The notes under the pieces are model-generated. The model was not told the DNA's origin and searched no databases. It saw nothing but the letters and a program-made list of their open reading frames with translations. From NCBI RefSeq assembly GCF_000340375.1, contig NZ_KB446648.1:319263-383262 (forward strand): a stretch of DNA of 64,000 bases, given 5' to 3'. The stretch's first letter is position 1. The number at the start of each line of letters is the position of its first letter. Positions 23,707-26,047 of the stretch are shown in pieces. Both the position numbers and the translations under genes were made by a program. Source of the DNA: Eggerthia catenaformis OT 569 = DSM 20559. Its GTDB lineage: Bacteria > Bacillota_I > Bacilli_A > Erysipelotrichales > Coprobacillaceae.

Positions 23707-24210
23707 ATGGACAAACAAAATTATAAAAATGAGAAATATCAAGTCTTTTCAATGTTTGATAAGAAATGGGCATTAGCCACTGCCGGTACCATTGATAACT
23801 TTAATACATGTACGATCGGTTGGGGAAGCCTGGGAGATATTTGGCGAGGAATCAATAGAGGAAGACCTGTTGTAACTATTTATGTAAATCCGTTAAGATA
23901 TACCAGTGAATATCTACTAAATAATGATTATTTTACAGTCAGCTTTTTTCCGAAAGAATATAAAAAGGATTTAGTTTATTTAGGCAGGCACAGCGGCAGG
24001 GATGAGGACAAGGTCTCTCATACATCATTAACACCTTTATCCTTAGCACAGGGGGTTACATTTAAAGAAGCAAAGCTGACATTTGTATGTAGAAAAATAT
24101 ATTGGGATCAGTTTTCTTTAGAGCATCTTGATCCGGAGATTGTATCAGATATTTATTTGGATAAACCTCCCCATTATGAATTTATTGGTGAGGTTATTGA
24201 GGTTATATAA
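23707..24210 (+). CDS. Flavin reductase family (FMN-binding split barrel) protein
   Basis: The 167-residue protein has the split-barrel pattern of flavin reductase-like FMN-binding proteins: FDKKWALATAGTIDNFNTCTIGWGSLG near the N terminus, TIYVNPLRYTSEYL and YFTVSFF in the core, and GRHSGRDEDK in the second half. It may be an oxidoreductase using NAD(P)H and FMN; the partner is not known. Only 3 bases separate it from bglA, without a clear own ribosome site, so coupling is likely. The functional link to sugar use is unclear. Confidence 0.83.
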   Translation: MDKQNYKNEKYQVFSMFDKKWALATAGTIDNFNTCTIGWGSLGDIWRGINRGRPVVTIYVNPLRYTSEYLLNNDYFTVSFFPKEYKKDLVYLGRHSGRDEDKVSHTSLTPLSLAQGVTFKEAKLTFVCRKIYWDQFSLEHLDPEIVSDIYLDKPPHYEFIGEVIEVI

Positions 24211-24234
24211 TAAAAAGAAGTAGTATTATGAGGT

Positions 24235-24255
24235 GAGACCTCCAAAAGTTAGACT
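24235..24255 (+). mobile_element. Possible terminal inverted repeat of an IS3-family (IS150-like) element, remnant
   Basis: GAGACCTCCAAAAGTTAGAC resembles the left end of IS150-group elements (pattern TG...CCxCCAAAAGTTAGAC). No transposase reading frame follows and no right end is seen in the window, so only a fragment would remain. Identification is by recall of the end pattern only. Confidence 0.3.
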
Positions 24256-24261
24256 TTTTTT

Positions 24262-24287
24262 GAGACGGTTTCGACTGTCTCTTTTTT
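24262..24287 (+). terminator. Terminator downstream of the flavin reductase gene
   Basis: GAGACGGT-TTCG-ACTGTCTC stem (one mismatch, stable UUCG-type loop) followed by TTTTTT. Confidence 0.75.
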
Positions 24288-24393
24288 AGGCAGTTAGAAG
24301 GTTAAGTCGGACTTATCTTTTATTGATAGTTCTATGACAGACGATGCTTATTTTTGTATGTACTACTCAAAAACGATAGAAAGAAATCTATGA

Positions 24394-24615
24394 TGCTCAA
24401 ATAGGCTCCGCACAACCACATATTTATCCTCAACGGATAGTTTTAATGTCGATATGTACCTAAATTTCAATGACATTAGCAAGTATACATTTGTAATAAC
24501 TCCTATTTTTGAAATGATTCCGTATTGCGGAAAATTCATGATTCGGACGACTGCTTTCGGGCTTATCTCTATCTATACCATGGCAGTCATGCAGAGGGAG
24601 GAAAGATCTTTATAA
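24394..24615 (+). pseudogene. Unidentified gene fragment with foreign base composition
   Basis: A 73-codon open frame without a start (just after TGA at 24391) ends with TAA at 24613. It uses codons such as CGC, CCG, CGG and ACG that are rare in the neighbouring genes. I cannot assign it to a family; the translation includes FVITPIFEMIPYCGKFMIR. The frame contains Met codons but no ribosome site. It is best read as a remnant of an acquired gene; the stretch 24288-24393 holds no gene either. Confidence 0.3.
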
Positions 24616-24672
24616 AAAGAATTGACACAATGTCAACCAAAGACGACATGAATGTGAGATTGGAGATAGGAA

Positions 24673-24825
24673 ATGTTTAAAGGAACACCGGAATTGATAA
24701 CACAGCGAAGAGAAGAAATTATAAATGCCTGTGAGCAACTATATCAGACAATGAGTTTCCGAGAAATTACACTGAAAGAGATAGGGAACGTTACCATCCG
24801 GATGATCAGAGGTATACTCATTTAA
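24673..24825 (+). pseudogene. Truncated TetR-family regulator (N-terminal fragment)
   Basis: The first 40 codons, MFKGTPELITQRREEIIN then ACEQLYQTMSFREITLKEIG, match the start of TetR-type regulators (helix 1 and the beginning of the helix-turn-helix). The homology stops at about base 24797 inside the recognition helix region, and the frame closes after 10 more unrelated codons. GGAG-type site upstream (GGAGATAGGAA). Loss of the rest shows a deletion or recombination. In another frame, 24792-24845 encodes a short tail (YHPDDQRYTHLRDIADI) that looks like the end of a different gene. Confidence 0.6.
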
Positions 24826-24868
24826 GAGATATTGCTGATATTTAGTACAATATAAAGAGGAATTTAAA

Positions 24869-25357
24869 ATGATTAATGAGAAGAAAGACTTAGAAGATAT
24901 TATTGGCTTGAGTTTAGACAAGTTATATGAAAAAGATATATATTTAATAAAAGCAGGAGAGAATATTAAAAAACCTATAAATGCTGATGTTCTCCATAAT
25001 TCAGAACGATCTATAGTGCACATGTTTGCTTATTATTTTGAAGAACTATATAAAGAGAAATACAAGGATCATAATTTGAATATAGATGTAGAATATAATA
25101 GAAATTTGTATGATATAAAGAGACTTGGCGAGGATTGCATAATTCCTGATTTTATTTTTCACGAAAGAGGAAAAAACAAAAATAATATATTAGTCATAGA
25201 ATTTAAAACATGGTGGAATAGTGAGCAAGCTGAAGATAAAGAAAAAATAAAGAAATTGTGTGAAGAAAAAGAATATCAATATCAATATGGTGCTTCTATT
25301 ATCTTTGGAAAAAGCAGGGAAGAAGTAGACATAAAATGGTATCCATTTGATGAGTAG
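24869..25357 (+). CDS. PD-(D/E)XK nuclease-like protein
   Basis: The 162-residue protein carries the order expected for the restriction-endonuclease-like fold: Glu at about 46 in NSERSIVHMFAYYF, DVEYNR at 73-78, Pro-Asp at 93-94 (IIPDFIFHERG) and Glu-x-Lys at 111-113 (LVIEFK). I know a widespread, uncharacterised family with DxEYNR, PDIIVHxRG and LLVIEIK in this order. The catalytic residues are intact, so DNA cleavage is possible, but no target or partner is known. GAGG precedes the ATG. It lies in a scarred accessory region just after a broken TetR gene, so a defence role is only a guess. Confidence 0.68.
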   Translation: MINEKKDLEDIIGLSLDKLYEKDIYLIKAGENIKKPINADVLHNSERSIVHMFAYYFEELYKEKYKDHNLNIDVEYNRNLYDIKRLGEDCIIPDFIFHERGKNKNNILVIEFKTWWNSEQAEDKEKIKKLCEEKEYQYQYGASIIFGKSREEVDIKWYPFDE

Positions 25358-25433
25358 ATACATAATAAAAAGGATATTAATTAATATACAAAAAGAGATC
25401 GGAATAGTATAATGTATCCAAAAGGAGCTTACT

Positions 25434-25673
25434 ATGCCAAAACAGATACAAACAATGACTTTTGATAATAAAACATATGAAATTATTGGTATTTTTGAAT
25501 ATGAAGAAAAAGAATATATTGCTTTACTAACAAATGATAAGAAAGAAGATGTTTATCTTTTTGAATATTATCAAGAAAATAATCATTATGAATTGTTTGA
25601 TATTCCTGATGATATATTTGATGATGTTGCTGAAGAATTTGAATTTATAGTTGAGAATCAGTTATTTGACTAG
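25434..25673 (+). CDS. DUF1292-like small protein
   Basis: The 79-residue acidic protein (TFDNKTYEIIGIFEYEEKEYIALLTND, then VYLFEYYQENNHYELFDIP) has the beta-rich layout of the DUF1292 family: short strands with Phe-x-x-x-x-(K/E)-Y-I-A-L and a C-terminal acidic helix. The family is common in Firmicutes and of unknown function. AAAGGAG precedes the start. It is separated from the nuclease-like gene by 76 bases and probably transcribed on its own. Confidence 0.62.
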   Translation: MPKQIQTMTFDNKTYEIIGIFEYEEKEYIALLTNDKKEDVYLFEYYQENNHYELFDIPDDIFDDVAEEFEFIVENQLFD

Positions 25674-25772
25674 TAGTGTTTGGATAAAAAAGATAATAAA
25701 GACTGGAATATAATTGGACTGAGAGTTATTTGTTTGATGGAAGCATTACTATATTTTAGAAAGAATAATAGG

Positions 25773-25951
25773 ATGAAATCAAAACTGAAAATAGTATCAG
25801 TTCTTGTCTTATCTTTAGGTAGTTTACAGTTATAAATACTCAAACTTCTAAGTCTAAAAAAACGGATACAAGTGATCGTAATGTATTCCTGTTATGGATA
25901 TCACTAATGGGTATTTTGTTATTAGGAACGATAGTTCTGAGATATCATTAG
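25773..25951 (+). pseudogene. Broken small surface-protein gene (signal peptide plus anchor-like end)
   Basis: ATG at 25773 begins a signal-peptide-like sequence (MKSKLKIVSVLVLSLGS) that stops at TAA 25833. In the +2 frame the sequence continues to TAG at 25949 with QTSKSKKTDTSDRN followed by a hydrophobic span (VFLLWISLMGILLLGTIVL) and RYH. The two halves together look like a short secreted protein with a membrane or sorting-signal end, disrupted by a frameshift. TAG at 25949 runs directly into the terminator. The rest of 25674-25772 shows no gene. Confidence 0.5.
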
Positions 25952-25975
25952 TTCACCTTTAAGGTGAACTTTTTT
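25950..25975 (+). terminator. Terminator after the broken surface-protein gene
   Basis: AGTTCACCT-TTA-AGGTGAACT perfect stem followed by TTTTT. Confidence 0.8.
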
Positions 25976-25986
25976 ATGAGATAAAA

Positions 25987-26031
25987 TTGAGACGAACTTG
26001 AGACGACATCAAAGAATAAAATACCTATAAT
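25987..26031 (+). promoter_or_regulatory. Promoter region of comFA with a phased direct repeat
   Basis: A perfect 9-base direct repeat TTGAGACGA occurs at 25987-25995 and 25998-26006, 11 bases apart, that is one helical turn. A consensus TATAAT lies at 26026-26031. The -35 position (26003-26008) has only a poor match, so the repeat may be a binding site for an activator. Confidence 0.45.
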
Positions 26032-26047
26032 AAATATAGGTGATAGA

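Follow-up and report, generated by a model that had tools for sequence, protein, structure and literature searches.

Eggerthia catenaformis OT 569 (DSM 20559; genome size 1.94 Mb) carries, upstream of a comFA-type helicase gene, a small gene whose product belongs to the PD-Lambda-3_A family and is probably a metal-dependent DNA nuclease. The gene appears to have been acquired horizontally, and its product most likely serves as a single-gene antiphage effector, a reading to which we give a probability of roughly 0.57. The protein is related to one component of the PD-λ-3 system, whose other component is missing here, and is thus probably a stand-alone phage-defense enzyme. We favor this reading over that of a leftover from a larger system and over that of an in-trans partner of a type I R-M system.

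The nuclease gene and its surroundings

The window analyzed here is a 64,000-nucleotide stretch of contig C3. It includes an AT-rich block of 1.8 kb that extends from a flavin-reductase-like gene to the comFA-type gene and contains two intact open reading frames (ORFs), 24869-25357 and 25434-25673 (Table 1). The length of the first ORF is not a product of chance, because none of 1,000 dinucleotide shuffles of positions 24211 to 26047 yielded an ORF of at least 162 amino acids (99th percentile, 124 amino acids). The original prediction described an intact nuclease gene with the motifs E46, D94, and E111-x-K113, and the ORF, the residue numbering, and the conservation of these motifs all agree with that description. 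The gene is preceded by an RBS-like sequence and by a promoter-like pair, although such pairs are as common in shuffled sequences (14 found versus 13.0 expected).

Table 1. Features of the nuclease-containing block and its flanks (window positions)
Feature	Position	Strand	Remarks
Flavin-reductase-like gene	23707-24210		Upstream flank of the block
Terminator-like hairpin	24262..24281	+	Brackets the block on its upstream side
Broken ORF with weak TetR-N-like stretch	24673..24825	+	Continues into the valS scrap; NF050111, E=0.06, far below cutoff
valS scrap	24794..24828	+	35 bases, in frame HPDDQRYTHL; 97% to the genome's own valyl-tRNA synthetase gene
Promoter-like pair TTAAGA-18-TACAAT	24822..24851	+	Upstream of the nuclease gene; 9/12 match
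RBS-like AAAGAGGA	24854..24861	+	7 bases before the nuclease ATG; read from sequence
PD-(D/E)XK-type nuclease gene, intact	24869..25357	+	162 aa; E46, D94, E111, K113 plus invariant H98, D123, Y138
Promoter-like pair TATACA-17-TATAAT	25385..25413	+	Between the nuclease and DUF1292 genes; consensus match only
DUF1292 gene	25434..25673	+	79 aa; PF06949, 29.5 bits versus cutoff of 24; judged to be an unrelated neighbor
Broken remnants	25680..25950	+	Hydrophobic C-terminal tail at the end of one frame
Terminator-like hairpin	25950..25970	+	Brackets the block on its downstream side
comFA-type helicase gene	from 26048		Downstream flank of the block; DEAD-box/ResIII helicase by Pfam

The nuclease gene had also been described as intact while everything around it is broken. 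This is true of the scraps at approximately positions 24290 to 24868 and 25680 to 25950 but not of the flanks beyond them, which consist of intact housekeeping genes: those for a GH1 glycosidase and the flavin-reductase-like protein on one side and comFA, secA, and prfB on the other (comFA and prfB are the names that we assume for the matched domains). The nuclease gene itself has probably been preserved under selection.

Just 5' of it lies an odd chimeric scar, in which a broken TetR-like start is joined to the scrap of the valyl-tRNA synthetase gene (presumably valS, judging from the encoded protein) that follows it and has its source at C4:60679-60713. Near the upstream terminator-like hairpin, the short piece at positions 24224 to 24260 recurs at C1:447432-447465 (92%) and may be the end of an insertion sequence.

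A comFA-type gene is present in 38 of 40 relatives. Nine stretches upstream of it were fetched, two of which end at a contig edge, and the genes found there differ among the seven relatives with enough readable sequence; this interval therefore accepts insertions. The window as a whole was rejected as a defense island. The Pfam families encoded in it are mainly housekeeping among the matches listed (25 of 71), and a PADLOC scan of its 59 other ORFs of at least 100 amino acids (E<=1e-20) returned three matches in all, each of them generic: two ABC-transporter-like proteins matching “mad3” and one WYL regulator. Nor is the nuclease gene an accessory gene inside a type I R-M or BREX operon, as its neighbors in the window are housekeeping genes.

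Family membership and predicted fold

The window protein matches the PADLOC model PD-Lambda-3_A (PDLC03986) with an E value of 6.6e-9 and 33.9 bits, a moderate score that marks it as a divergent member; for its close relatives, the E values against this model are about 1e-17 to 1e-18. The alignment covers the catalytic core, placing residues 43 to 134 of the window protein on positions 38 to 135 of the model. In Pfam and NCBIfam, no model scored above its cutoff for this protein. A PDB sequence search with an alignment of 12 homologs (A1) gave nothing credible, and comparison with a profile of HsdR N termini, built from only two sequences, showed no relationship.

In alignment A1, the residues E46, D94, E111, K113, H98, D123, and Y138 are invariant. 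A larger set of 18 rows, one of which (L020) lacks the first codon, gave the same result: all seven residues are invariant in 17 of the 17 usable rows, including distant plasmid members. The remaining sequence (L024), which was left out of both the residue count and the tree, has the same motif residues when read in the correct frame. Only 4 of the 14 inner branches of the tree are well supported and the place of the window protein is not settled; by tree path, its nearest rows are L014, L003, and L002.

An AlphaFold2 model of the window protein, made from three sequences, was poor (pLDDT 52.6), and the fold search with it, which retrieved mostly antibody chains at a TM score of about 0.2, was disregarded. 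The same three sequences gave a better model for the homolog L002 (pLDDT 73.8, pTM 0.75), which shares 44% identity with the window protein; the alpha-beta-beta-beta-alpha-beta core is present in this model. In VIA-align searches with the L002 model, 3ijm, a structure with the title restriction endonuclease-like, ranked first (Z 9.5, 111 residues aligned with an rmsd of 3.0) and was followed by BpuSI (Z 8.4), TT1808 and EcoRV (Z 7-8), and archaeal Hjc (Z about 6-7); chains of human Rep15 also reached a Z of about 9, and a Z of <8 can mean merely a common arrangement. Foldseek returned no match at E<=0.001, and the top rows above that threshold include ACE1 (Cas4 family), the restriction enzyme BsaXI, SSO0001, and MGME1.

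The structure prediction called for in the original prediction thus gave a restriction-endonuclease-like fold for the homolog, and the assignment of the window protein to the PD-(D/E)XK type is borne out by this fold and by motif conservation. As judged from a predicted model, the match of fold and motif supports a PD-(D/E)XK nuclease fold well, though not conclusively. The family resembles 3ijm, the N-terminal domain of BpuSI, TT1808/DUF820, and EcoRV in the fold of the L002 model (Z 7-9.5) and in motif layout, but differs from these enzymes in having no significant sequence match in Pfam, NCBIfam, or the PDB and in the additional invariant residues H98, D123, and Y138.

The nuclease gene is rare, and its distribution is sparse and patchy. 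Homologs were found in 5 of 148 relatives and in 4 of 395 genomes of the class, the own genome included in each case (i.e., in 4 of 147 and 3 of 394 other genomes, respectively). A profile search of 295 genomes of the phylum gave 4 genomes with a match, again with the own genome included, two of them being weak and limited to short stretches (G189, E 2.5e-4; G361, E 8.8e-4), and a search of 98 relatives with the PADLOC model gave 3, including the own genome. A pattern scan of GTDB contigs added two loci. A plasmid search found nothing with the window protein as the query and 28 records with the homolog L002.

Among phage records there was one match, an 11-kb fecal contig filed as “Bacteriophage sp.,” on which the neighbors of the family gene form a type I R-M operon. 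Scans of IMG/VR, which were pattern based and reach close relatives only, found no relative, and the idea of a phage- or virus-borne gene was rejected.

Comparison with PD-λ-3

PD-λ-3 comes from the functional selection in Escherichia coli of Vassallo et al. 2022 (PMC9519451). A passage in PMC13190303 has it stopping lambda by abortive infection, and a passage in PMC10952713 groups it among the PD(D/E)XK systems. On an E. coli IncHI1B plasmid, one of the relatives of the window protein matches PD-Lambda-3_A over all 159 positions (331 bits) and the next gene encodes PD-Lambda-3_B, a Hypoth_Ymh protein (593 bits); because A matches end to end and B is next door, this locus is PD-λ-3 itself. DNA similar to the E. 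coli A gene is found in 44 of 5,426 E. coli genomes. In plasmid p22Q34-1 (L028:5881-8639), the A and B genes are followed by a gene for an Mrr-type restriction endonuclease, and a BREX locus adjoins them. The Mrr-type gene also follows A and B in the chromosomal copies L033 and, in truncated form, L034.

The window protein is homologous to PD-Lambda-3_A in the catalytic core and has the same E...D...ExK, YNR, and PDxIxHxRG motifs, but it is only 37% identical to the E. coli plasmid protein over 81 residues. It also differs in standing alone. PD-Lambda-3_B (TIGR02391/Hypoth_Ymh) is neither next to the nuclease gene nor found elsewhere in the whole genome at E<=1, and tblastn detected no remnant of it in the window. 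A complete PD-λ-3 system at this locus was thus rejected, with A present and B absent; given the missing B gene and the housekeeping neighbors, the window gene is neither a complete PD-λ-3 nor part of a defense island. With no PD-Lambda-3_B in the genome, its product would work alone, work with another partner, or not work at all. Lack of B is the rule in this family: of the relative loci, only two, both from E. coli (L028 and L034), have PD-Lambda-3_B.

Genomic contexts of the relatives

Gene neighborhoods were analyzed for 17 relative loci (L002, L003, L014 to L022, L024, and L028 to L032); L033 and L034, chromosomal copies in E. coli with 100% and 90% DNA identity to L028, were counted with it, and L032, a Klebsiella plasmid, stands for many near-identical plasmid records. 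Defense neighbors are clear in 6 loci, suggestive in 4, and were not recognized in 7.

The clear cases include two loci (L002 and L014) in which the nuclease gene lies between hsdM and hsdS of a type I R-M system, one adjoining AbiEi/AbiEii (L016), one adjoining QatC/QatD (L030), the E. coli plasmid locus with PD-Lambda-3_B and BREX (L028), and a distant member located between brxC and pglX of a BREX system (L017). In the tree, L017 branches off separately together with L018, and L017 has no match to the PADLOC model, so the BREX case is that of a distant cousin. The segments with the family gene between hsdM and hsdS are L002:6483-10096 and L014:42-2174, and one of the two contigs is the one filed as “Bacteriophage sp.”

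The suggestive neighbors are a helicase-nuclease matching PADLOC MkoA (L019), an HNH protein and a KAP NTPase (L020), a YhcG nuclease and Fic (L022), and a reverse transcriptase (L024), which is possibly a defense reverse transcriptase. In the last case, the family member lies directly 3' of the reverse-transcriptase ORF (RVT_1; L024:1435-3337). No defense neighbors were recognized in L003, L015, L018, L021, L029, L031, and L032; L015 adjoins a Sir2-family gene.

In the 16 loci used for this count, the 113 proteins encoded next to the nuclease matched 207 PADLOC models at E<=1e-20, which, among the matches listed (25 of 207), were mostly type I R-M models, plus BrxC, PglX, and SoFic. For comparison, 10 loci that surround comFA or DUF1292 in relatives were taken as a control; at the same threshold, their 55 proteins gave matches to 3 models, all from generic families. 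The test and control sets are not of equal size and represent different species.

The original prediction had put the gene forward as a candidate for defense. The tie of the family to defense holds, with the PD-Lambda-3_A match and with clear defense neighbors in 6 of 17 loci and suggestive ones in another 4 of 17, but the idea of the window locus as a defense island does not. The family is not one of housekeeping contexts or degenerate catalytic sites: the residues are intact, and defense neighbors, clear or suggestive, accompany 10 of the 17 relatives.

A parallel for the BREX case is brxU of pEFER, which passages of PMC8565348 describe as an accessory type IV nuclease gene between brxC and pglX that provides complementary protection; its product is given there as a DUF262/DUF1524 GmrSD-like enzyme. 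BrxU occupies the same slot as L017 and offers a precedent for a free-standing accessory nuclease in a defense operon, but it belongs to a protein family unrelated to the window nuclease.

The DUF1292 neighbor

ORFs of at least 79 amino acids arose in 216 of 1,000 dinucleotide shuffles of positions 24211 to 26047, so the DUF1292 ORF is backed by its Pfam match and not by its length. Between TATAAT and this ORF there is an RBS-like AAAAGGAG, and the gene may have its own promoter, as read from the sequence. The genome has two DUF1292 genes. The closest homologs of the one in the window (41-47% identity) lie near genes for a Cof-type HAD hydrolase, MarR, and an ABC transporter in 3 of 3 relatives (labels assigned by eye), with no nuclease gene beside them in any of the three. 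Conversely, a tblastn search with the 79-aa protein as the single query found no DUF1292 relative in the nuclease loci (0 of 17, a set that takes in L034 and leaves out L032). A two-gene nuclease-DUF1292 system was therefore rejected, as the pairing is not conserved either way, and of the two roles suggested earlier for the DUF1292 protein, that of an unrelated neighbor stands and that of an accessory does not.

Alternative explanations

The nuclease gene could be the orphan leftover of a multigene system, be it one resembling PD-λ-3 or a type I R-M operon that housed it, and would then have little or no function and be still to decay. Gene scraps flank it on both sides, two of its three nearest rows in the tree (L014 and L002, but not L003) lie between hsdM and hsdS, and PD-Lambda-3_B is missing from the whole genome. 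However, the ORF and the RBS are intact, and none of the seven invariant residues has been lost. The window has neither a PD-Lambda-3_B remnant detectable by tblastn nor a type I R-M subunit model among its 59 other ORFs of at least 100 amino acids, and relatives without B are the rule. We regard a leftover as unlikely, if still the most serious rival.

It is less probable still that the nuclease acts in trans with a defense system encoded elsewhere, a candidate being the type I R-M genes of contig C2, in the way that relatives located between hsdM and hsdS may act in cis. That contig has an hsdM-hsdS pair (C2:175905), two relatives sit exactly between such genes, and a different accessory nuclease gene, brxU, lies between brxC and pglX in pEFER with complementary protection (passages of PMC8565348). 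The hsdM and hsdS genes of this genome, however, overlap and have no insert, and the nuclease gene is on another contig, C3.

Holliday-junction resolvases share the PD-(D/E)XK fold, but a cellular role in nucleic acid processing (repair or recombination) is highly improbable: the alignment of archaeal Hjc structures with the L002 model and the adjoining comFA-type DEAD-box/ResIII helicase gene would fit it, but the nuclease is patchy (4 of 147 and 3 of 394 other genomes) where the comFA-type gene is nearly constant (38 of 40), relatives carry different genes upstream of comFA, and relatives of the nuclease adjoin defense genes.

Proposed mechanism and implications

In the PD-(D/E)XK superfamily, acidic residues bind metal and a lysine assists DNA hydrolysis. 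By analogy, E46, D94, and E111 of the window protein would hold a divalent metal, with K113 assisting hydrolysis. As a stand-alone antiphage effector, the nuclease would be quiet until infection and would then cut DNA; its target may be incoming phage DNA or phage and host DNA together, the latter amounting to abortive infection.

A broader and more tentative idea, which we consider possible but doubtful, is that the protein belongs to a so far unnamed family of small effector nucleases, which different defense systems borrow as plug-in modules and which are either triggered by interchangeable sensors or self-acting. Such nucleases would have a Ymh/HEPN-like partner in PD-λ-3, sit between hsdM and hsdS in operons of type I R-M systems, accompany AbiE and Qat, occur in BREX as distant cousins, and stand alone in the window. 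In open-license PMC papers this kind of system is known, but we found there no mechanism of PD-λ-3, no solo form, and no hsdM-hsdS slot for this nuclease family.

Should the proposed reading be correct, the nuclease component of PD-λ-3 would not be bound to its partner, with relatives occurring alone as well as inside type I R-M operons, and system callers that require the partner gene will miss such solo nuclease genes. It would also provide a small set of single genes that could be tested as free-standing antiphage effectors and would shed light on the mechanism of PD-λ-3, namely on whether A cuts alone or only together with B.
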